Source: Shinella fusca (GTDB lineage Bacteria > Pseudomonadota > Alphaproteobacteria > Rhizobiales > Rhizobiaceae). From it: a DNA stretch of 64,000 bases. Position numbers and translations under genes: made by a program. Under the pieces are notes generated by a model. The model searched no databases. It was not told the origin of the DNA and worked only from the letters and a program-made list of their open reading frames with translations. The stretch is taken from the NCBI RefSeq assembly GCF_014203155.1, contig NZ_JACHIK010000006.1, positions 124,001 to 188,000 of the forward strand. The letters are read 5' to 3'. Shown piece after piece: positions 1,462 to 54,287 of the stretch. Position 1 is the first letter of the stretch; each line of letters begins with the position of its first letter.

Positions 1462-3285
1462 ATGGTGTCCACAGACAGACAGACAGTCGCGGCGGAGAAA
1501 ACAGCGCGCCGCAGCATTCGCCCCCTCGGCCGGCTCGGCCCCTATCTCCGACGGTATCGCGGCCTCGTCGTCGGCGCCCTCGTCGCCCTCGTGCTCGCCG
1601 CTGTCACGACGCTCGTGCTGCCGGTCGCCGTGCGGCGGATGATCGACCACGGCTTCTCCAGCGCGGATGCCGGCTTCATCAACACGTATTTCACGATGCT
1701 CTTCGTGCTGGCGGGCCTGCTCGCGCTGGCGAGCGCCATGCGCTACTATTTCGTCATCACGCTCGGCGAGCGCATCGTGGCGGACCTGCGCCGCGAGGTC
1801 TTCGCCCATGTGACGAAGCTCTCGCCCGCCTTCTTCGACGTCAACCAGTCCGGCGAGATCGTCTCGCGGCTGACGGCCGACACGACGCAGATCAAGTCCG
1901 CCGTCGGCGCCACCGCCTCGGTCGCCCTGCGCAACCTCATCCTGTGTCTCGGGGCCATCGCCATGATGGTCTATACGAGCCCCAAGCTCTCCAGCCTCGT
2001 CATCGGCGCCATTCCGATCATCGTCTTCCCGCTCGTCGCCTTCGGCCGCTCCGTGCGCCGCCGCTCGCGCGAGGCGCAGGATACGCTGGCCGCCGCCTCG
2101 GCCTATGCGGGCGAGGCGATCGGCGCCACCCGCACGCTCCAGGCCTTCAACGCGGAAGACGCCGCGCGCGCGCGCTTCTTCGGCTCCGTCGAGAGCGCCT
2201 ACGAGGCGGCCCGCTCGGCGATCCGCGCCCGTTCGCTTCTGACGGGCTTCGCCATCGCCATGATCTTCGGCTCGGTCGTCGCCGTGCTGTGGTTCGGCGC
2301 GCGGGACGTGCTTTCCGGCAACCTTTCGGCCGGCACGCTCGGCCAGTTCCTGCTCTATGCCGTCTTTGCCGCCGGCAGCCTCGGCGCGCTCTCGGAAGTT
2401 TGGGGCGAGCTGTCGCAGGCCGCGGGCGCCGCCGAGCGCCTGACCGAGCTCCTTGCCGAGCCGCCGGCCATCACCGCGCCGGCAAACCCGGTCGCGCTGC
2501 CGGTGCCCGCGCGCGGGGAGCTCGCCTTCCGCGACGTGCATTTCTCCTATCCGGCCCGGCCCGGCTATCGCAGCATCAACGGCCTCAGCTTCACGGTGAA
2601 GCCGGGCGAGACGGTCGCCGTCGTCGGCCCGTCGGGCGCCGGCAAGAGCACGATCCTGTCGCTCGTCCTGCGCTTCTACGATCCCGATTCGGGCGCCGTG
2701 CTGCTCGACGGCGTCGATCTTCGCGCCGCCGATCCGGAAGAGCTGCGCCGCCGCATCGCGCTGGTGCCGCAGGATGTCACCATCTTCGCCGCGACGATCC
2801 GCGACAACATCGCCTTCGGCATGACGGGCGTCAGCGACGAGGCCGTGCACGCGGCGGCACGGGCGGCGCAGGCGGAAGAGTTCATCGCCCGGCTCGACAA
2901 GGGCTACGACACGATGGTCGGCGAGCGCGGCGTCACGCTTTCCGGCGGCCAGCGCCAGCGCATCGCCATTGCCCGCGCGATCCTCAAGGATGCGCCGCTG
3001 CTCCTCCTCGACGAAGCGACCTCCGCGCTCGACGCGGAAAGCGAGACGCTGGTGCAGACGGCGCTCGACGGGCAGATGGGCAAGCGCACGACGATCGTCA
3101 TCGCCCACCGGCTCGCGACGGTCCTGAAGGCCGACCGCATCCTCGTCATGGAGGCGGGCCGCGTGGTGGAGGAGGGCACGCACCAGTCGCTCATCCAGCA
3201 GGGCGGCCTTTATGCCCGTCTCGCGCGGTTGCAGTTCGACCATGGCGGCCAGGCCTTCCTCGGCGAGGAGCGCGCCGCCGGCTGA
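1462..3285 (+). CDS. ABC transporter, fused permease and ATPase (MsbA/LmrA type)
   Basis: The 607-residue protein has an N-terminal six-helix exporter domain (about residues 30-320) and a C-terminal nucleotide-binding domain. Walker [10 protein letters not shown] is near residue 390, signature LSGGQRQR near 493, Walker B LLLLDEAT near 514 and the H-loop IAHR near 547, so it should be an active homodimeric half-transporter exporting a lipid or hydrophobic compound across the inner membrane. The substrate cannot be told from sequence. I chose ATG 1462 (MVSTDRQ), preceded by a G-rich stretch, over an open start at 1381. It is divergent from rpmE. A much longer open frame overlapping this gene in another register is an artefact of high G+C. 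Confidence 0.9.
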
Positions 3286-3359
3286 GGGCGCCTCTTGCCG
3301 CGGCGTGCGGGCGCCCTATCCTGAGGTGGCAGACTTCATGTCACCCGGGAGGAAACAAC

Positions 3360-4352
3360 GTGGCATTTTCGACGATCACCCGCCGCAGCCTGATCGCCCT
3401 CGGCACGAGCGTGCTCGCGTCCCTGGCACTGGGCACGCCTGCCCGTGCCCAGCAATTCCCCGAACGGCCGATCACCCTCGTCGTGCCGTTCGCGGCCGGC
3501 GGATCGACCGACGTGGTCGCCCGCATCGTCGCGCAGAAGATGTCGGAGGGCCTTGGCCAGCAGATCATCGTGGAGAACGTCGGCGGCGCCGGCGGCAGCC
3601 TCGGCGCGAGCCGCGTGGCCCGCGCGGAGCCGGACGGCTACACGATCCTGATGGCGACCGTCGCAACCCATGCGCTGAACCCGCTCATCCTCAAGACCAA
3701 GCCCTATGACGCGGAGAAGGATTTCGCACCCATCTCGCTGCTGGTCATCGTGCCGAACGTGCTGGTGGTCAATCCCGAGCTGCCAGCGAAGAATGTCGAG
3801 GAACTGCTTGCCCTGCTGAAGGCCGATCCGGAGGGCTACAGCTATGCATCCTCCGGCAACGGTACGCCGCTGCATCTTTCCGGCGAGCTCTTCAAGGCGA
3901 TGGCCGGCGTCGACATGCAGCATGTGCCCTACAAGGGCTCCGGCCCGGCGCTGAACGACGTGATCGGCAACCAGATCCCCATCATGTTCGATAACCTGCC
4001 GTCCTCGTCCGGCCATATCAAGGCCGGCACGCTGCGCGCGCTCGCCGTGACCACCAAGGAGCGCGCCGCCTCCTTCCCGGATGTGCCGACGGTCGCCGAA
4101 TCGGGCATTCCCGGCTACGAGACCTATACGTGGAACGCGCTCTTCGCCCCGGCCGGCACGCCGCCGGAGGTGGTCGCGACGCTCAACGCGGCGGCCAACA
4201 ATGCGTTGAAGAATCCGGCCGTCGCCGAGCGGATGAAGGAATTCAGCGCCACCATCGTCGGCTCGACGCCGGAGGAGCTCGGCAAGCATGTCATGGCCGA
4301 GCTTGCCAAGTGGAAGCCGGTGGTCGAGGGCGCGCATATCCAGATGGATTGA
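3360..4352 (+). CDS. Tripartite tricarboxylate transporter substrate-binding protein (TctC/Bug family)
   Basis: The 330-residue protein starts at GTG 3360 behind a good ribosome site (GGGAGG, 3347-3352). It has a signal peptide with a paired arginine (TRRS) and a cleavage-like ARAQQ near residue 30. The mature part shows Bug-family features: FPERPITLVVPFAAGGSTD, a VENVGGAGGS segment and PDGYT. These periplasmic proteins capture carboxylates or similar small molecules for a TctAB carrier. No tctA or tctB lies nearby, so it is an orphan receptor, which is common for this family. Ligand unknown. Confidence 0.9.
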   Translation: MAFSTITRRSLIALGTSVLASLALGTPARAQQFPERPITLVVPFAAGGSTDVVARIVAQKMSEGLGQQIIVENVGGAGGSLGASRVARAEPDGYTILMATVATHALNPLILKTKPYDAEKDFAPISLLVIVPNVLVVNPELPAKNVEELLALLKADPEGYSYASSGNGTPLHLSGELFKAMAGVDMQHVPYKGSGPALNDVIGNQIPIMFDNLPSSSGHIKAGTLRALAVTTKERAASFPDVPTVAESGIPGYETYTWNALFAPAGTPPEVVATLNAAANNALKNPAVAERMKEFSATIVGSTPEELGKHVMAELAKWKPVVEGAHIQMD

Positions 4353-4377
4353 GCCCCGTTCCCGCAGCCGGCGCTGC

Positions 4378-5415
4378 CTACTTCTCCGTGAGCTTCAATT
4401 CGATGCGGCGGTTGGTGGCGCGGGCCGCGTCGTCGTCGCCTTCGGCGATCGGCTGGAATTCGCCGAAGCCGGCGGCGACGAGCCGGTTGGCGGGCACGCC
4501 GTTGGCGATGAGGTATTTCACGACGGAGGTCGCGCGGGCGGAGGAAAGCTCCCAGTTGTCGCGGTAGCGCCCGGTGCCGGAGAGCGGCACGTTGTCCGTA
4601 TGGCCATCGACCCGCAGCACCCAGTTGATCTCGGCGGGGATTTCCTTGGCAAGGTCGATGAGCGCGGCGGCGAGCTTGCGCATCTCCTCCTGGCCGGCCG
4701 GGTTGAGATCGCTGCTGCCGGAGGGGAACAGCACTTCCGACTGGAAGACGAAGCGGTCGCCGACAATGCGGATGTTCTCGCGGTCGGAGAGGATTTCGCG
4801 CAGGCGCCCGAAGAAGTCGGAGCGGTAGCGGTTGAGCTCCTGCACGCGCTGGGCAAGCGCCACGTTGAGGCGGCGGCCGAGATCGGCGATCTTGGCCTGC
4901 GAGTTCTTGTCCTTGGCCTCTGAGGCCTGCAGGGCCTCTTCCACCGCGGCGATCTGGCTGCGCAGCGCGGCGATCTGCTGGTTCAGCAGCTCGATCTGGC
5001 TCATCGCGCGGGCGCTCACCTGCTTTTCGGTGTCGAGCTCGCCTTCAAGCGTGGCGACGCGGGCATTGGCCGCGCCCGCGGCGCCGGCGCCGCTGTCGAG
5101 AAGCTGCTGGAGGCGCGTGCGGTCGCTCTCCGACTGGGCGAGCGAGGCCTGCAGGTTGGCGAGCGCATCTTCCAGATCCTGCTTGCCGCTCTTTTCGAGG
5201 GCCAGAAGCTGCGTCAGCTCGTTGATCTGGCTCGTCAGGCGGTTCAGCACGTCGTCCTTGCCGGAAATCTCGCGGCTAAGGAAGAACTGCGCCAGCACGA
5301 AGACGGTGAGTAGGAACATGATGGCGAGCAGCAGCGTCGACAGTGCGTCGACGAAGCCGGGCCAGTAATCGATGGTGCGGTGGCTCCGCCTGTTGCGCGC
5401 AAGCGCCATCGTCAT
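4378..5415 (-). CDS. MotB/OmpA-like inner-membrane protein with coiled coil
   Basis: The 345-residue protein has one transmembrane helix (about residues 18-44), a long coiled coil (about 50-190) rich in heptads, and a C-terminal OmpA/MotB peptidoglycan-binding domain with VDGHTDNVPL and NWELSSARA. Such proteins anchor a proton channel to the cell wall. The start overlaps the stop of the upstream MotA-like gene (ATGA), so the two are translationally coupled and probably form one complex. No flagellar genes flank it, and TolR is encoded elsewhere, so it is neither MotB nor TolR. The cellular role is unknown. Confidence 0.88.
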   Translation of the reverse strand: MTMALARNRRSHRTIDYWPGFVDALSTLLLAIMFLLTVFVLAQFFLSREISGKDDVLNRLTSQINELTQLLALEKSGKQDLEDALANLQASLAQSESDRTRLQQLLDSGAGAAGAANARVATLEGELDTEKQVSARAMSQIELLNQQIAALRSQIAAVEEALQASEAKDKNSQAKIADLGRRLNVALAQRVQELNRYRSDFFGRLREILSDRENIRIVGDRFVFQSEVLFPSGSSDLNPAGQEEMRKLAAALIDLAKEIPAEINWVLRVDGHTDNVPLSGTGRYRDNWELSSARATSVVKYLIANGVPANRLVAAGFGEFQPIAEGDDDAARATNRRIELKLTEK

Positions 5416-6470
5416 TCGCCCCCGGATGTGTGGGCTTTTTCAGCGGCGGCGCGCTCGGCCTTTTCGCCGCTGCGCGCGGCAAGGCGGTCGAGCGTGCGGC
5501 GAAGGGCCTTCGCCTCCTCCTGCTGCGCCTCGATCCAGTCGCGCAGCATCTGCTGCTCGCTGCGCATGTTCTTGACGAGGCCCTGGATGCCTTCGGCAAG
5601 GCTGGCCATGGCGGCGGTCGAGCGGCTGCTGCCGCCCTCCTGCGCGAGCTTCAGGATCTGCTCGGCGAGCGCCTGCACGTCCGTCCCGGCGCCCTCGACG
5701 GCCGGCTGTAATTCCGAGCCGACATCGGTGACGGAGGAGAGCCAGTTTTCCAGTTCCGTATAGAAGCGGTTCTGCGCGCGGCCGGCCTGCAGGTCGAGGA
5801 AGCCGAGGATGAGCGAGGAGGAGAGGCCGAAGAGCGACGTGGAGAAGGCGGTGCCCATGCCGGTGAGCGGCGCGGAGAGGCCCTGCTTCAAGGCGGTCAG
5901 GATATCGTTCGCCGTGCCGTTGCCGGCGTCGAGCGACTGGATGACCGCGCTGATCGAGCCGATGGTGCCGAGCAGGCCCCAGAAGGTGCCGAGCAGGCCG
6001 AGGAAGACGAGAAGGCCGATGAGGTAGCGGGACGTATCGCGCGATTCGTCGAGGCGCGTGGCGATGGAATCGAGGATCGAGCGCAGCGTCGCCGTCGACA
6101 GCGCCACCGAATGGTGCCGGCCGATCAGCGCGCGCATCGGGGCGAGGAGCACCGGGTCGCGCCCGACCTTCTCGGCGCTTCCGGCCGCGCGGAAGGAGTT
6201 GAACCAGCGCACCTCGGGCCGCAGCGCCAGCACATGGTTGAAGACCAGCAGGATGCCGATCAGCAGCACGCCGAGGATGAGGCCGTTGAGGCCGGGATTG
6301 CTGAGAAAGGCGGCCTGCGCCTGGCGGAAGAGGATCGCGGCGACGAAGCCGACGATGATCAGGAAGATCACCATCGTCCAGAAGAACGCCATGGGGCTCG
6401 AGAGCTTGTGGGGGTAATCGTCCGAGGTCTCGGCCGATCCTCCCCAGCCCGACAGCGCCAGCTTAGCCAT
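5412..6470 (-). CDS. MotA/TolQ/ExbB-family proton channel protein
   Basis: The 352-residue protein shows hydrophobic segments at about residues 27-48, 60-80, 145-170 and 185-225. The third carries the channel-like sequence GLLGTFWGLLGTIGSI and the fourth GMGTAFSTSLFGLSSSLILG, both typical of MotA/TolQ/ExbB proteins. The C-terminal tail (about 270-350) is predicted coiled coil and charged. It is the likely partner of the coupled OmpA-like protein. The pair resembles the ZorA/ZorB core of Zorya defence systems, but no ZorC, ZorD or ZorE gene is adjacent, so I call it a chromosomal channel of unknown function. Confidence 0.87.
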   Translation of the reverse strand: MAKLALSGWGGSAETSDDYPHKLSSPMAFFWTMVIFLIIVGFVAAILFRQAQAAFLSNPGLNGLILGVLLIGILLVFNHVLALRPEVRWFNSFRAAGSAEKVGRDPVLLAPMRALIGRHHSVALSTATLRSILDSIATRLDESRDTSRYLIGLLVFLGLLGTFWGLLGTIGSISAVIQSLDAGNGTANDILTALKQGLSAPLTGMGTAFSTSLFGLSSSLILGFLDLQAGRAQNRFYTELENWLSSVTDVGSELQPAVEGAGTDVQALAEQILKLAQEGGSSRSTAAMASLAEGIQGLVKNMRSEQQMLRDWIEAQQEEAKALRRTLDRLAARSGEKAERAAAEKAHTSGGE

Positions 6471-6580
6471 GTAGTCGCATCTCCGCTTACCCGATGGGGG
6501 CGGAGACTAGAGGAAGATTGCGCCGAATTGAAGGGCCAGCGGGCAACAGCGGCGCGGGAAAACGCCGTCCGTGCCGCGCC

Positions 6581-7381
6581 TTAGCGCGCGGGCACCGGGC
6601 GGTGCAGCACTTCGCGCAGCGCCTTGTGGATATATTCGTTGCCGGCGACGATGGTGCCGGTGTCGAACATGGCGTTGCCGCCCTCGAGGTCGCTGGCATA
6701 GCCGCCGGCTTCGCGAATCAGCAGCACGCCGGCCGCCATGTCCCAGGGCATCAGGTCGCGTTCCCAGAAGCCGTCGAAACGGCCGGCGGCGACATAGGCG
6801 AGATCGAGCGCGACCGCGCCCATGCGGCGCACGCCGGCGACTTCGCCCATCGTGTGGCGCAGCTCGATGAGGAACTTGCCGTGGTTGCCGCGGCCGAGAT
6901 GCGGAACGCCGCAGCCGACGACGGCGTCGGAAAGGTTCTTGCGGGCGGCGACGCGCAGGCGGCGGTCGTTGAGGAAGGCCCCGCCGCCGCGCTCGGCGGT
7001 GAAGAGCTCGTCGGTCGCCGGGTTGAGGACGACGGCGGCGACGATCTCGCCGTTGCGCTCCAGCGCGATGGAGACCGCGAAGAACGGAATGCCGTGCAGG
7101 AAATTGGTGGTGCCGTCGAGCGGATCGACGATCCAGCGGTGCGCGCCGTCCGTGCCGACGATCTCCTCGCTCTCCTCGCCGAGGAAGCCGTAGGTCGGGC
7201 GGGCCTTCATCAGCTCGTCGCGGATGATCTTCTCGGCCTTGCGGTCGGCCTGGGAAACGTAGTCGCCCGGCCCCTTGAGCGAGACCTGGAGGTTCTGCAC
7301 TTCGCCGAAATCGCGCCCGAGCGACTTGCCGGCCTTGAACGCGGCCTGAACCATGACGTTGAGAAGAGCTGAACGGGCCAT
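6581..7381 (-). CDS. suhB: Inositol monophosphatase family protein (SuhB-like)
   Basis: The 266-residue protein has the metal-binding motifs of the family: GEES at about residues 68-71, DPLDGTTNF at 86-94 and WDMAAG in the C-terminal part. These bind Mg2+ and the phosphate ester, so it should hydrolyse inositol-1-phosphate or a related sugar phosphate in the cytoplasm. SuhB homologues in enterobacteria also act in rRNA antitermination; nothing here decides between the two. It stands alone on the minus strand, upstream of the MotA-like gene with about 110 nt between. The symbol is by family resemblance. Confidence 0.9.
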   Translation of the reverse strand: MARSALLNVMVQAAFKAGKSLGRDFGEVQNLQVSLKGPGDYVSQADRKAEKIIRDELMKARPTYGFLGEESEEIVGTDGAHRWIVDPLDGTTNFLHGIPFFAVSIALERNGEIVAAVVLNPATDELFTAERGGGAFLNDRRLRVAARKNLSDAVVGCGVPHLGRGNHGKFLIELRHTMGEVAGVRRMGAVALDLAYVAAGRFDGFWERDLMPWDMAAGVLLIREAGGYASDLEGGNAMFDTGTIVAGNEYIHKALREVLHRPVPAR

Positions 7382-7578
7382 GCTGCTAGAGTTCCTTCGG
7401 GAATGTCCGGTGTTTTATCCGGTGGCCGGGAGACGGCGAAAGCCGCGGCGCGCATGCACCGGGACCGGGATGCGCCTCAAGACCACAAATCCCCCGAAGT
7501 TTCAAGCCTTGAGCGTTGAGAAGGGTGCAAGGCACGCGCGCCGCCGCTGCATAGGGGGGCCTGAACGGGGCAAAAGCA

Positions 7579-7608
7579 AAGGCCCGCCGGGAGGACCGGG
7601 CGGGCCTT
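7579..7608 (-). terminator. Intrinsic terminator after tal
   Basis: Arms AAGGCCCGCC and GGCGGGCCTT flank a short loop. It lies 24 nt beyond the tal stop codon; read on the minus strand, the stem is followed by TTTGCTTTT. Confidence 0.8.
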
Positions 7609-7631
7609 CAAGAAGGGAAGGGGCCTTACTT

Positions 7632-8594
7632 TCAGGCGGCGGCCTTCAGTTCCTTGTCGATCATGGCGCGCAGGCTGCCGAGGTCCTTGGCGAAGGCGCG
7701 GATGCCCTCGGAGAGCTTGTCGCTCGCCATGGCGTCCTCGTTCAGCATCCAGCGGAAGGTCTTCTCGTCGATCTTGACCGGCGAAACCTTGGCGGCCTTT
7801 TCCGGCGAGAGCTTGCGTTCCAGCTTGCCGTCGGCGGCGTCGAGCTCTTCCAGCAGCGCGGGGCTGATCGTCAGGCGGTCGCAGCCGGCCAAAGCCTCGA
7901 TCTCGCCGGTGTTGCGGAAGGAGGCGCCCATGACGATCGTGTTGATGCCGTTGGACTTGTAGTAGTCGTAGATCGAGCGGACCGAGAGTACGCCCGGATC
8001 GTCTTCCGCCGTGAAGGTCTTGCCGGTCGCCTTGACGTGCCAGTCGAGGATGCGGCCGACGAAGGGCGAGATGAGGAACACGCCGGCATCGGCGCAGGCG
8101 ATGGCCTGGGCCTTGTTGAAGAGCAGCGTCAGGTTGCAGTCGATGCCTTCCTTCTGGAGGACTTCGGCCGCGCGGATGCCTTCCCAGGTGGAGGCGAGCT
8201 TGATGAGGATGCGGTCGCGCGAAATGCCGCGCGCGTCATAGGCCTTGATGATCTGGCGGGCTTTGGCGATGGAGCCGTCGAAATCGAAGGAGAGGTCGGC
8301 GTCCACTTCGGTGGAGACGCGGCCGGGCACGAGTTCGGCGAGCGCCGCACCGACGGAGATGGCGAGGCGGTCGGCAACGGCGGCGACGACGCCCTCGCGG
8401 CTGCCGCCCTGCGACTGGCCCCAGCGGAGAGCTTCGGCGACCGTGTCGGCAAAGGCCGGCGTGCCGAGCGCCTTCAGGACGATGGTGGGGTTGGTGGTGC
8501 AGTCGACCGGCTTCAGGCGGCGCACGGCTTCGATATCGCCGGTGTCTGCCACGACGGTCGTCATCGCGCGGAGTTGTTCAAGTTTGGATGCCAT
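7632..8594 (-). CDS. tal: Transaldolase
   Basis: The 320-residue protein matches the TalB class. It has [12 protein letters not shown] near residue 31 and the Schiff-base lysine in [11 protein letters not shown] (Lys132, same number as in E. coli TalB), followed by NLTLLF and [11 protein letters not shown]. It transfers a dihydroxyacetone unit between sedoheptulose-7-P and glyceraldehyde-3-P, giving fructose-6-P and erythrose-4-P, in the non-oxidative pentose-phosphate pathway. It is monocistronic, has its own terminator, and is divergent from a SorC-type regulator, which makes that regulator a candidate controller. It could also dispose of erythrose-4-P formed by the ery genes of this window. 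Confidence 0.96.
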
Positions 8595-14885: not shown

Positions 14886-15045
14886 GGCGCGGCCTCTTTG
14901 CTAAGGAAATTTGATTGCCCTCCCATGTAGGTTCAGTTTCTTGAAATCCAAGCGAAGATGGTCCGCTTTCCGCAAACCGCTCCTTTGTTTTTGTTTTGTT
15001 CACATTTGACTGGCAGGGTCCGGCCAACGGGACTAGGGTTTTTGC

Positions 15046-15558
15046 ATGCAGGAAACGATTCGCATCATCGGCATCGATCCGGGGCTTCGCCGCACCGGCT
15101 GGGGCATCATCGAGACGCTCGGCAATTCGCTGCGCTTCGTCGCCTCCGGCACGGTGACCTCCGACGGCGAGATGGATCTTGCCTCGCGCCTCTGCCAGCT
15201 CCACGACGGCCTTGCCGAGGTGGTGCACGGCTACAAGCCGGACGAGGCGGCGGTGGAGCAGACCTTCGTCAACAAGGACGCGACGGCGACGCTGAAGCTC
15301 GGCCAGGCGCGCGGCATCGCCATGCTGGTGCCGGCCCGCGCGGGCCTGCGCGTCGCCGAATATGCGCCAAACGCCGTCAAGAAGGCCGTCATCGGCGTTG
15401 GCCACGGCGAGAAGCAGCAGATCCACATGATGCTGAAGGTGCTGATGCCCAAGGCGACCTTCGTCGGCAACGACGCCGCCGACGCGCTCGCCATCGCCAT
15501 CTGCCACGCCCACAACCGCCAGGGCCTTTCCGGCCGCCTCGCCAAGCTCGCCGGCTGA
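15046..15558 (+). CDS. ruvC: Crossover junction endodeoxyribonuclease RuvC
   Basis: The 170-residue protein begins with [15 protein letters not shown], which carries the first catalytic aspartate, followed by [23 protein letters not shown] and a C-terminal [16 protein letters not shown] with the remaining acidic residues. It resolves Holliday junctions as a dimer together with RuvAB. The gene heads the ruv region, but ruvA does not follow directly: a toxin-antitoxin pair sits between them. Confidence 0.97.
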
Positions 15559-15565
15559 TTTGTTC

Positions 15566-15612
15566 TTGACTTGTTCCTGTTGTGCCGGTAAGTAATACTG
15601 TAGAGGTATTAC
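15566..15612 (+). promoter_or_regulatory. Promoter and autoregulatory operator of the toxin-antitoxin pair
   Basis: TTGACT (15566-15571) could serve as -35, with TAAGTA (15589-15594) as -10 at 17-nt spacing. The inverted repeat GTAATAC (15592-15598) and GTATTAC (15606-15612) has a 7-nt centre, ends 1 nt before the antitoxin ATG and overlaps the -10. That layout fits autorepression by an AbrB-type antitoxin, though binding is inferred. Confidence 0.6.
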
Positions 15613-15613
15613 C

Positions 15614-15874
15614 ATGCGCGTGACGGAAAAAGGCCAGGTGACGATCCCGAAGGATATCCGCGAGCGGCTTGCCATCAAGCCGGGCTCGGAGGTCGACTTC
15701 GTCGTGTCGGAGGACGGCGTGATGCTGGTCAAGGCCGGTGACGGTAAGTCCGACTTCAAGGATTTCGAGGATTGGGCGGCGAGCGTCCAGGGGACTTGGG
15801 ACCTCGATGGCATGACGCCCGACGAATATTTCGAATGGCTGCGGGGGCCGCGTGATGACCTCGACCCTCGTTGA
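15614..15874 (+). CDS. AbrB/MazE/SpoVT-type antitoxin
   Basis: The 86-residue protein has an N-terminal swapped-hairpin domain (MRVTEKGQVTIPKDIRERLA, then IKPGSEVDFVVSEDGVMLVKA, about residues 1-42) that binds DNA as a dimer. The acidic C-terminal half (DFEDWAASVQGTWDLDGMTPDEYFEWLRG) would wrap and neutralise the toxin. The stop lies 20 nt inside the following PIN-domain gene, typical of coupled toxin-antitoxin pairs. The perfect inverted repeat just upstream is its likely operator. It lies between ruvC and ruvA. Confidence 0.88.
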   Translation: MRVTEKGQVTIPKDIRERLAIKPGSEVDFVVSEDGVMLVKAGDGKSDFKDFEDWAASVQGTWDLDGMTPDEYFEWLRGPRDDLDPR

Positions 15875-16271
15875 CACGAATGTCCTGATCGACATTCTCG
15901 GTCCGGACCGGCCCCAGCGCGTCTGGTCGCTTGCCGCACTGAAGCGCTGTGCGGAAGAAGGCGAACTCGTTCTTCATTCCGTCGTCTGGTCGGAGCTGGC
16001 GACCTCGCCGCTCAGCGAGCTGGAGCTGAACCTTGCCTTCGGCTGGCTGCGCATGCGGCGCGAACCGATGTCCTACGAGGCGGCATTTTCGGCAGGCAAG
16101 GCGCATTATGCCTATCGCCGGGCGGGCGGGCTTCGCGAGCGCACGCTTCCCGATTTCCTTGTCGGTGCCCATGCGGCCGCCCGGTCCCATCGCCTGCTCA
16201 CCCGCGATGCCGCCCGCTACCGCACCTATTTCCCCGCGCTCGACATCATCTCTCCCGAAACCCATCCCTGA
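15855..16271 (+). CDS. PIN-domain ribonuclease toxin (VapC-like)
   Basis: The 138-residue protein has the acidic active-site residues of PIN domains: [11 protein letters not shown] near the N-terminus, the glutamate in [19 protein letters not shown] and the final [14 protein letters not shown]. VapC toxins cleave tRNA or rRNA. I prefer ATG 15855 over GTG 15852. The gene overlaps the antitoxin gene by 20 nt and ends 11 nt before ruvA, so read-through probably drives ruvAB. All catalytic positions look intact, so the module may be active. Confidence 0.88.
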
Positions 16272-16282
16272 CGGATCCTCCC

Positions 16283-16900
16283 ATGATCGGCAAACTCAAA
16301 GGCGTAATCGACGAGATCGGCGAGGATCATGTGGTCCTCGACGTGCACGGGGTCGGCTATGTCGCCCATTGCTCGGCGCGCACGCTCGGCAGGCTCGGCT
16401 CGGCCGGCGAGGCGGCGGTGCTGTTCATCGAGACCTATGTGCGGGAGGATCAGTTCCGCCTGTTCGGCTTCCTGACGGCGCTGGAGCGCGAATGGTTCCG
16501 CCTTTTGCAGAGCGTGCAGGGCGTCGGCTCCAAGGTGGCGCTCGCCGTCCTTTCCACGCTGACGCCGGGGGAGCTTGCCAACGCCATCGCGCTTCAGGAC
16601 AAGACGGCCGTGTCGCGCGCGCCGGGCGTCGGGCCGAAGGTGGCGGTGCGCATCATCACGGAGCTGCGCAACAAGGCGCCGGCCTTCGCGGGCGAGGCGG
16701 GGGCGTCCATCGGGCTCAAGCAGGAGATCGGCGAAGGGGTCGCTTCCGCCCCGGTTACCGACGCCGTCTCGGCGCTCACCAATCTCGGCTATTCGCGCGA
16801 CCAGGCGGCCAACGCCGTCGCGGCGGCGCTCAAGAACGGCGGGGAGGGGGCCGACAGCGCCAAGCTCATCCGTCTCGGCCTCAAGGAATTGTCGCGGTGA
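16283..16900 (+). CDS. ruvA: Holliday junction branch migration protein RuvA
   Basis: The 205-residue protein begins [26 protein letters not shown] (OB fold). It has the two helix-hairpin-helix motifs [18 protein letters not shown] and [19 protein letters not shown], and a C-terminal domain III ([20 protein letters not shown]) that contacts RuvB. RuvA tetramers hold the four-way junction. The gene follows the toxin gene by 11 nt and precedes ruvB by 40 nt. Confidence 0.97.
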
Positions 16901-16940: not shown

Positions 16941-17981
16941 ATGAGCGACGAGACCAGACTGCTTTCGCCCGACAAGCGCGGCGAGGACATCGATACGGCC
17001 CTCAGGCCCCAGACGCTGGACGATTTCACCGGCCAGGCGGAGGCGCGGGCGAACCTGAAGATATTCATCGAGGCGGCGAAGAACCGCGGCGAGGCGCTCG
17101 ACCATGTCCTCTTCGTCGGCCCGCCCGGCCTCGGCAAGACGACGCTGGCGCAGATCATGGCCAAGGAGCTCGGCGTCAACTTCCGCTCGACCTCCGGCCC
17201 GGTCATCGCCAAGGCCGGCGACCTTGCGGCGCTGCTCACCAATCTGGAAGAGCGCGACGTGCTCTTCATCGACGAGATCCACCGCCTCAACCCGGCCGTC
17301 GAGGAAATCCTCTATCCGGCCATGGAGGATTTCCAGCTCGACCTCATCATCGGCGAAGGCCCGGCCGCGCGCTCGGTGAAGATCGACCTGTCGAAATTCA
17401 CGCTCGTTGCCGCCACCACGCGCCTCGGCCTATTGACGACGCCGCTGCGCGACCGCTTCGGCATTCCGGTGCGGCTTAATTTCTACACCGTCGAGGAACT
17501 GGAATCGATCGTGCGCCGCGGTGCGCGGCTGATGGGCCTCGGCATGACGGACGAGGGCGCGCGCGAGATCGCGCGGCGGGCGCGCGGCACGCCGCGCATC
17601 GCCGGCCGCCTGCTGCGCCGTGTGCGCGATTTCGCGGAAGTGGCGAGGGCCGAGGCCGTGACGCAAAAGATCGCCGACGAGGCGCTGACGCGGCTCCTCG
17701 TCGACAATATGGGCCTCGACCAGCTCGACCGGCGCTACCTTTCGATGATCGCGCACAATTTCGGCGGCGGGCCGGTCGGCATCGAGACCATCGCGGCCGG
17801 TCTTTCCGAGCCGCGAGACGCCATCGAGGACATCATCGAGCCCTACATGATCCAGCAGGGCTTCATCCAGCGAACGCCGCGCGGGCGCGTGCTGACGGCC
17901 AATGCCTGGAAGCATCTCGGCCTCACGCCGCCGAAGGATATCGAGGCGACGCAGTTCCGGCTGGGGCTGGAGGACGAGTGA
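16941..17981 (+). CDS. ruvB: Holliday junction branch migration helicase RuvB
   Basis: The 346-residue protein has the AAA+ core: Walker [12 protein letters not shown] (about residues 60-70), Walker [11 protein letters not shown], sensor 1 [20 protein letters not shown], arginine-finger region, and a C-terminal winged helix ([20 protein letters not shown]). Hexamers pump DNA through RuvA-bound junctions. The stop is 4 nt before the thioesterase gene, so ruvB and ybgC are cotranscribed. Confidence 0.98.
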
Positions 17982-32015: not shown

Positions 32016-32104
32016 GCCGGCCACCGTTTCCATTGCGCCGGATTATTTTTCATTTCCGACATATCGCGCTTGACTTCCAGCAAGCCCTCCCATATCCACG
32101 GCGG

Positions 32105-32154
32105 CGGGACACCCTTCCCCAACGAAGGGCTTTCTATCTGGAAGGATAGCCATC
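32105..32154 (+). ncRNA. serC leader element, two hairpins abutting the start codon
   Basis: Immediately before serC, CCCTTC (32112-32117) pairs with GAAGGG (32124-32129) and CTATC (32134-32138) pairs with GATAG (32145-32149), leaving CCATC before the ATG. This position and two-hairpin form match the serC RNA motif described in alphaproteobacteria by comparative genomics. The second hairpin could mask the ribosome-binding site (GGAAGGA, 32140-32146), suggesting control of translation. Ligand, if any, is unknown. Confidence 0.65.
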
Positions 32155-51773: not shown

Positions 51774-51850
51774 GGCGGAGTAGCTCAGTAGGTTAGAGCA
51801 GAGGAATCATAATCCTTGTGTCGGGGGTTCGAATCCCTCCTCCGCTACCA
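51774..51850 (+). tRNA. tRNA-Met (CAU), elongator type
   Basis: The 77-nt gene folds as a full cloverleaf: acceptor GGCGGAG pairs with CTCCGCT, D-arm AGCTCAGTAGGTTAGAGCA, anticodon loop ATCATAA carrying CAT, T-arm GGGGGTTCGAATCCCTC, and an encoded CCA end. The CAU anticodon is shared by elongator Met, initiator Met and lysidine-modified Ile; the A-box and lack of an initiator C1-A72 mismatch point to elongator Met. Lower-confidence alternative is tRNA-Ile2. Confidence 0.92.
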
Positions 51851-53899: not shown

Positions 53900-54110
53900 C
53901 GGTGCCCGTGACTAGGGTCCGCGCTGGAAACGGCTCCGCCCGAAAGGCGGATTAAAAGGGAACACGGTAAGGCCGATGGACGGCCGAAGCCGGGACTGCC
54001 CCCGCAACTGTGACCGTCGAGTCTTCTTCCATTTGCCACTGGCCGCATTCGGCGGCCGGGAAGGCGGAGGAAAGACGTAGAAACGGAAGTCAGGAGACCT
54101 GCCGCTCCAG
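53900..54110 (+). ncRNA. Cobalamin (B12) riboswitch
   Basis: The leader contains the invariant B12 box GCCGGGACTGCCCCCGCAAC (53989-54008 plus TGT), AAAGGGAACACGGTAA earlier, and the terminal GTCAGGAGACCTGCCG. These features define the cobalamin riboswitch and read in the direction of btuB. The expression platform should lie in the 180 nt before the btuB start. High adenosyl- or methylcobalamin would repress the downstream uptake operon. Confidence 0.95.
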
Positions 54111-54287
54111 TCACCCATGCCCGGTACGAGGGGTGCCGAGGCGCGGACGTCCGTAGCGGTGACACATTGTGTTGCCGTGTGCCGGGCGGACCGGGGTGGA
54201 CCTTCTTTCGCTCCCAGTTCCAAGCCGGATCGCGGTTCGTAGCGAACCAGGGCGCCCACGCGCCCGCACTTGCCTTGGGGGCAGATT

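Follow-up and report, generated by a model that had tools for sequence, protein, structure and literature searches.

Does a toxin–antitoxin (TA) pair located between ruvC and ruvA bring ruvAB under its control, and how does such a pair come to lie inside a recombination-repair operon? The original prediction for this locus described the pair as an isolated insertion into ruvCAB that may place ruvAB under TA control. We analyzed the window, i.e., the whole 64,000-nucleotide stretch of DNA, which is part of a 4.85-Mb genome; the closest named relatives of its toxin are those of Shinella.

The genes of the locus are encoded on the + strand. ruvC encoding the Holliday-junction resolvase (15046..15558; PF02075, 151.4 bits; TIGR00228) is followed by a gene for an 86-aa AbrB/MazE-type, VapB-like antitoxin (15614..15874; PF04014, 51.6 bits against a cut-off of 24.7; TIGR01439 [AbrB], 54.5 against 28.3) and a gene for a 138-aa PIN-domain, VapC-like toxin (15855..16271, with an alternative GTG start at 15852; PF01850, 37.6 bits against 23.6). 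ruvA (16283..16900; TIGR00084, 195.2 bits) starts 11 nt past the toxin stop, and ruvB (16941..17981; TIGR00635, 453.5 bits) and a YbgC-like thioesterase gene come next on the same strand. The ruv genes, the antitoxin domain, and the PIN domain all scored above curated Pfam or NCBIfam cut-offs; the match of the toxin to the NCBIfam VapC equivalog NF047959 was below its cut-off (29.6 vs. 80 bits). ruvA does not directly follow ruvC as in a plain ruvCAB operon, because a 724-nt gap with two genes separates them. Elsewhere in the window, Rfam/ARAGORN placed a cobalamin riboswitch at 53914–54120, a serC leader at 32102–32154, and a tRNA-Met at 51774–51850.

The antitoxin and toxin genes share 20 nt, with the small antitoxin gene upstream, as is typical of type II vapBC. 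The toxin combines the PIN domain with the conserved acidic residues of VapC-type toxins (D7, E47, D100, and D118), each of which was kept in 64–65 of 65 toxins from ruvC–ruvA gaps. No solved relative of the toxin emerged from a search with its sequence alone; a profile built from 42 toxins matched solved VapC structures (best, VapC15, 4chg; E 1.4e-5), and the AlphaFold2 model of the toxin was confident (pLDDT 94.1, pTM 0.88). By its domains and arrangement, the pair between ruvC and ruvA is a VapBC-type TA with a presumably toxic VapC. The gene identities, the distance to ruvA, and the intact catalytic residues given in the original prediction agree with these data.

Occurrence of the pair in Rhizobiaceae

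We compared the ruv regions of 100 GTDB-Rhizobiaceae genomes, one per genus, from 109 genera; the nine omitted genera (G001/G110, G005, G006/G111, G044, G076, G087, G091, G093, and G095) mostly have reduced or fragmentary genomes, so that the frequencies given here may be slight overestimates. ruvC precedes ruvA in 96 of the 100 loci, and the ruvC–ruvA gap holds a toxin of the window's family in 35 of these 96 genus-representative loci (TA+ loci). In the remaining (TA−) loci, the gap is ≤50 nt in 45, 51–250 nt in 10, and 251–600 nt in three, and longer in three, in which no toxin was found. Among the same-genus genomes drawn, the window's own included, the pair occupies the gap in all eight. 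The outgroup consisted of 40 loci of other alphaproteobacterial families, chosen from genomes with a RuvA match (136/152). No TA relative was detected in these 40 loci by tblastn, and the ruvC–ruvA gap is ≤34 nt in 38 of them; the two larger gaps (L274 and L277; 406 and 539 nt) gave no match to iterated toxin/antitoxin profiles. The ruvA–ruvB gap is ≤38 nt in all 38 measurable outgroup loci (two of 40 were unmeasurable). As control gaps in the 100 Rhizobiaceae loci, tolQ–tolR (0/35) and ybgC–tolQ (0/44 measurable) never exceeded 600 nt, while ruvB–ybgC, which is not a tight operon, did so in 34 of 65 loci. The statement that ruvC and ruvA are usually contiguous in relatives therefore describes the outgroup well, but within Rhizobiaceae it has to be set against the 35 occupied gaps. 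Presence of the same genes in every relative, which the original prediction named as grounds for its refutation, was borne out in part: many relatives carry them and others do not.

In 36 of the 100 Rhizobiaceae genera (L124–L223), the ruvA–ruvB gap holds at least the toxin of another, distinct VapBC-like pair; one of the 36 (L125) has a partial toxin frame only. This second VapBC often has its own palindrome, of the TCCTTACTATT...GTAAGGA type. Both gaps are occupied by TAs in 17 of the 100 loci, and the presence of the two TAs was not significantly correlated across the tree (median p 0.219). In a toxin tree of 157 rows, which has few columns, one long branch (L216), and "elsewhere" rows found using the window toxin as the query, toxins of the ruvC–ruvA gap, toxins of the ruvA–ruvB gap, and homologues elsewhere split almost cleanly, with four label changes against a least possible two and a shuffled mean of 72.6. 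On the RuvA+B+C tree (94 loci), presence was patchy: at least 25 changes were required for each gap, about as many as shuffled labels gave (27.8 and 26.7). Since the toxin lineages are true to their place and their presence is patchy, each lineage seems to have been often gained and lost. The ruvC–ruvA VapBC is likely a long-term, position-faithful resident of this gap in Rhizobiaceae that was repeatedly gained and lost, and the idea of an isolated insertion is contradicted by the 35 genus representatives and eight same-genus genomes that carry it.

A search of the TA− loci with the toxin 3′-end motif detected remnants in two, so that toxin remains are shown for few loci: L169 keeps the antitoxin and lacks most of the toxin, and L193 has the toxin 3′ end only. 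Co-descent of the toxin with the ruv genes was rejected, as the Mantel signal was weak for both the 34 ruvC–ruvA toxins (r 0.21; 3 of 2000 permutations as high) and the 31 ruvA–ruvB toxins (r 0.14; 133 of 2000).

Carriage by phages was also considered and rejected; a search of 50,697 phage records gave nothing at E 1e-5, and none of 11 pattern matches was confirmed in viral contigs. The same applies to plasmid cargo, because 141 of the 143 plasmid records with relatives showed less than 60% identity. A 96% identical toxin is present on NZ_CP069303.1, a 4.6-Mb Shinella record that is filed among plasmids but, judging from its size, is probably a chromosome. A betaproteobacterium (L090, Rhodoferax MAG, 4125–8261) has a TA relative between ruvA and ruvB, apparently an independent case.

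LexA-type box, promoter, and coupling to ruvA

The gap between ruvC and the antitoxin gene opens with GTTCTTGACTTGTTC (15562..15576, + strand), which matches the alphaproteobacterial LexA motif perfectly and was overlooked in the original prediction. It fits both GTTC-N7-GTTC, described as the alphaproteobacterial LexA motif (PMC3323433), and the Caulobacter LexA consensus (T/A)TGTTC-N6-TGTTC (PMC13384398). The box overlaps a −35-like CTTGAC (15565–15570), and a predicted −10 element, GTAAGT (15588..15593, + strand), is located 17 nt past it. An inverted repeat, GTAATAC-N7-GTATTAC (15592..15612, + strand), likely the VapBC operator, extends over −10/+1. Alignment of 63 sites shows a TA-rich −10-like element 17 nt past the CTTGAC of the box (T at box offset 27 and A at offset 28 in 92% each, T at offset 31 in 84%), and palindromes lie over this element, just before the antitoxin start, in many TA+ loci. 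The arrangement resembles a rhizobial consensus, CTTGAC-N17-CTATAT; a generic consensus promoter scan made no call at 15562. Conservation thus indicates that the promoter/operator region proposed earlier is real, except that its proposed start, 15566, cuts into the main element, the box.

The strict motif GTTC-N7-GTTC is present just past ruvC in 34 of the 35 TA+ but in seven of the 61 TA− genus-representative loci, and base shuffling left a box in a mean of 0.06 of 35 gaps (maximum 2) against the 34 observed. When named loci, which had been found via the toxin, were added, the strict box was present in 63 and the identical 15-mer in 54 of 64 ruvC–ruvA TA loci; removal of two duplicates left 61 and 52 of 62 distinct loci. 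L210 is the single TA locus without a box. In the seven boxed TA− loci, the gaps are 72–353 nt long and remnant-like, the box remains upstream of ruvA, and the bases TA are found near the −10 position in five. The strict box was absent between the ruvA stop and the toxin start in all 36 ruvA–ruvB TA loci (0/36), upstream of homologues outside the ruvC–ruvA gap (0/49, 200–420 nt before the toxin, with L090 in the ruvA–ruvB gap), and at the other PIN loci of the window's genome (0/11). The exact 15-mer occurs once in the 4.85-Mb genome. It is also carried by the ruv copies of the same-genus G219 and G157, whereas the additional toxin copy that G219 has at another site is box-free across its 6-kb stretch.

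As expected of a member of the alphaproteobacterial LexA regulon, GTTC-N7-GTTC is located in the core promoter and is conserved in relatives. One-mismatch boxes were not enriched in the whole window (46 vs. 46.2 expected), so that the case for LexA rests on position and conservation, and part of this conservation could reflect promoter strength because the 15-mer includes the −35-like element. The wider pattern GTTYNNNNNTTGTTC occurs 15 times in the window's genome, against once for the reversed control. It was found upstream of uvrA, uvrC, dinB, a UvrD/PcrA-type helicase gene, a ComM/YifB gene, ruvC, and the TA, while several of the 15 sites precede genes of unknown or non-repair role. At the lexA locus, a one-mismatch box on the + strand and a strict box on the − strand are located 37 and 63 nt, respectively, before the LexA match start. 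We regard the box at 15562–15576 as a candidate LexA site, through which DNA damage is likely to be the main input by way of presumed LexA binding and induction. A candidate new SOS gene encodes a putative secreted protein and has, close to its start, two LexA-type boxes that overlap each other (L240/L241, G000:C13:61159-61184).

ruvC has a LexA-type box of its own, GTTT-N7-GTTC (14987..15001, + strand), with one mismatch to the strict motif and 59 nt before the ruvC ATG; a similar box is located at about −58 to −61 before ruvC in many relatives. A relaxed pattern (GTTN, five bases, two pyrimidines, GTTC) was detected upstream of ruvC in 26 of 35 TA+ and 50 of 59 TA− loci (p = 0.28). The ruvC box is therefore about equally kept, and replacement of it by the internal box was rejected.

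Between the toxin stop and the ruvA ATG, the distance in 64 loci is −4 nt in 24, 0 in three, and 7 to 15 nt in 37; it never exceeds 15 nt, which leaves no space for a separate ruvA promoter outside the coding sequence. A simple scan found no terminator-like site on the + strand between 15600 and 16300. In Rhizobium leguminosarum 3841, the TA RL3987–RL3988 is placed immediately upstream of ruvA, and transposon insertion sequencing assigned vapC, ruvA, and ruvB to one class, required at every stage (PMC11406972). This shared class is the pattern that polarity onto ruvAB would give, and it is the strongest outside hint of the proposed mechanism. The text of that paper credits the TA in its own right and lists vapB in a different class, attachment-progressive (PMC11406972).

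Divergent alleles of the pair

We scanned DNA identity in 60-column blocks between the window and a second group of loci, consisting of L034, L036, L054, and L056 (Shinella or the window's genus) and L040 (another genus). Block identity was 76–100% in ruvC, 71–93% in the promoter and antitoxin start, and mostly 81–97% in ruvA. From 15657 to about 16133, seven of eight blocks dropped to 36–68%; the block at 15834 (antitoxin end/toxin start) stayed at 73–85%, so that the divergent part is interrupted, and identity regained 83–93% from 16194 onward. Between the groups (without L040), toxin residues 1–30 and 31–60 are 46% and 38% identical, respectively, and RuvA is 96% identical. Loci of other genera are among the nearest relatives of the second group (L126 at 88%). 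The genus also contains a third allele, L286 from G157, whose toxin shares 42% identity and whose RuvA shares 96% identity with that of the window. For 198 locus pairs with RuvA identity ≥92%, toxin identity was two-peaked (103 pairs below 0.65, eight at 0.65–0.80, and 87 above), although these pairs are non-independent and the upper peak is inflated by loci from the same genome. Such strong allele divergence between close relatives suggests cassette swapping.

Fourfold-site identity between the groups was 0.42–0.56 in the divergent part and 0.61–0.72 in the flanks, calculated from few sites. Within the groups it was also low in the TA (0.43–0.65 in the second group and 0.54–0.74 in the first). 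Since within-group identity is about as low and fast change fits too, these sites were rejected as proof of allele swapping.

L126 contains two tandem TA units, each with its own exact box. Immediately before the second of these units, 86 nt are 76% identical to the ruvC 3′ end plus the box; the ruvC-derived part alone is 59 nt with 71% identity (E 7e-4). In L177, an antitoxin unit without a toxin match precedes a complete TA, and each again has its own exact box; the AbrB-type antitoxin-like gene lies at about 3000–3300 after reorientation, directly before the complete TA. The stretch resembling the ruvC end in L126 and the box of each unit in L126 and L177 fit spread by homologous recombination through the ruvC end. 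It is conceivable, though in our judgment rather unlikely, that the pair is a position-faithful, SOS-driven TA cassette that swaps specificity alleles by homologous recombination, with the conserved ends as handles and the second part of the antitoxin moving together with the first two thirds of the toxin between species. Just as doubtfully, the handles would be the ruvC 3′ end, the LexA promoter, and the DNA-binding end of the antitoxin and, beyond the exchanged part, the toxin 3′ end and ruvA. If this were the case, the repair operon whose products resolve recombination would be home to an addiction allele for which recombination is the route of spread, loss, and return.

Regulatory model, rival explanations, and known systems

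From its sequence features, the locus probably has an SOS-controlled, VapBC-autoregulated internal promoter that drives vapB–vapC–ruvA–ruvB, with the TA as a long-term resident of the gap. LexA would occupy the −35 element, and the palindrome over −10/+1 would be bound by the antitoxin, either by itself or within the VapBC complex. DNA damage would lead to LexA cleavage and free the promoter for a single vapB–vapC–ruvA–ruvB transcript, and translation of the toxin and ruvA would be coupled via the 4-nt stop–start overlap or the gap of ≤15 nt. This would make the TA an SOS gene and provide ruvAB, in addition to the promoter at ruvC, with another SOS promoter inside the operon. The suggestion that ruvAB is under TA control keeps part of its force, because the TA pair has its own promoter and is closely linked to ruvAB, so that coupling of expression is likely. 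Control by the TA alone is unlikely, since the conserved LexA-type box adds a second control. As a counterpoint, the ruvA–ruvB TAs precede a ruv gene and yet are box-free; downstream ruv genes are therefore not always box-dependent.

The box could instead serve ruvAB alone, with the TA as a selfish passenger that is stable because its removal harms the repair operon and whose induction is a by-product. We give this explanation a sizeable chance, somewhat short of even: seven toxin-less loci keep the box upstream of ruvA, the presence of the TA is patchy (at least 25 changes on 94 loci), and the TA family has further members on plasmids and outside ruv loci. However, the TAs that precede ruvB lack the box (0/36), and the separate boxes of each tandem TA in L126 and of both units in L177 make the box seem a property of the TA unit. 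That the locus is an ordinary autoregulated VapBC, whose 15-mer is a strong −35 region unbound by LexA, is improbable. CTTGAC does lie within the 15-mer with a −10-like element 17 nt later, but 63 of 64 loci retain both GTTC half-sites although CTTGAC covers only one base of the first, VapBC promoters in the ruvA–ruvB gap are without GTTC half-sites (0/36), and the same wider pattern marks uvrA, uvrC, and dinB in the genome. Least probable, and very much so, is a recent insertion in the window's lineage that placed ruvAB under TA control alone, as the original prediction implied. The outgroup, with 38 of 40 gaps within 34 nt and none with a TA, fits an insertion, but its presence in 8/8 same-genus genomes and 35/96 family representatives contradicts "recent", and the LexA-type box speaks against sole control.

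Type II TAs under SOS control are known as single cases; here, a VapBC lineage with its own LexA-type site is found at one and the same place in a core recombination-repair operon across a family, and a second VapBC lineage occupies the adjacent ruvA–ruvB gap. The locus makes directly testable the disputed question of whether chromosomal TAs serve the stress response of their host operon or persist as passengers. Retention of the box where the toxin is gone favors service to ruvAB, whereas its presence in each TA unit and absence from ruvA–ruvB TAs suggest that it belongs to the TA.

LexA-controlled TAs, VapBC, genes inserted into ruvCAB, and one vapBC beside ruvA are already in print separately. 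Among the matches listed from the open-licence literature, which leaves subscription journals mostly outside, we found no description of a LexA site at a ruv-linked VapBC, and none of the combination of a family-wide fixed place, a LexA-type box, and a paired second lineage. The vapBC RL3987–RL3988 of R. leguminosarum 3841 shares with the window the AbrB antitoxin, the overlapping PIN toxin, and the order followed by ruvA and ruvB; in the main text of that paper, "LexA" occurs 0 times, and the passages compared here contain neither a survey of relatives nor a ruvA–ruvB TA (PMC11406972). Transposon phenotypes of rhizobial vapBC beside ruvA should be read with caution, as they may reflect polar effects on ruvAB. 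In Vibrionaceae, too, inserted genes interrupt ruvCAB, LexA sites precede ruvC and/or ruvAB, and the internal promoter has a second LexA site, but "antitoxin" occurs 0 times in the main text of that report (PMC3323433).

In E. coli dinB–yafN–yafO, a TA shares an operon with an SOS repair gene; the TA family and the gene order are different, and the LexA site is located before the repair gene. HigBA of Caulobacter crescentus presumably belongs to a TA family different from the VapBC of the window. Like the window's pair, higBA is a type II TA of an alphaproteobacterium that has a perfect LexA consensus and is directly followed by another gene; its promoter is under dual repression by LexA and the antitoxin, as would be the case in the window. 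Unlike the window's pair, it is toxin-first, lies upstream of higX, and is found in few Caulobacter genomes and outside repair operons (PMC13384398). The window's locus is instead a VapBC, position-faithful in ruvCAB across the family, where repression by LexA would follow from the sequence of the box.
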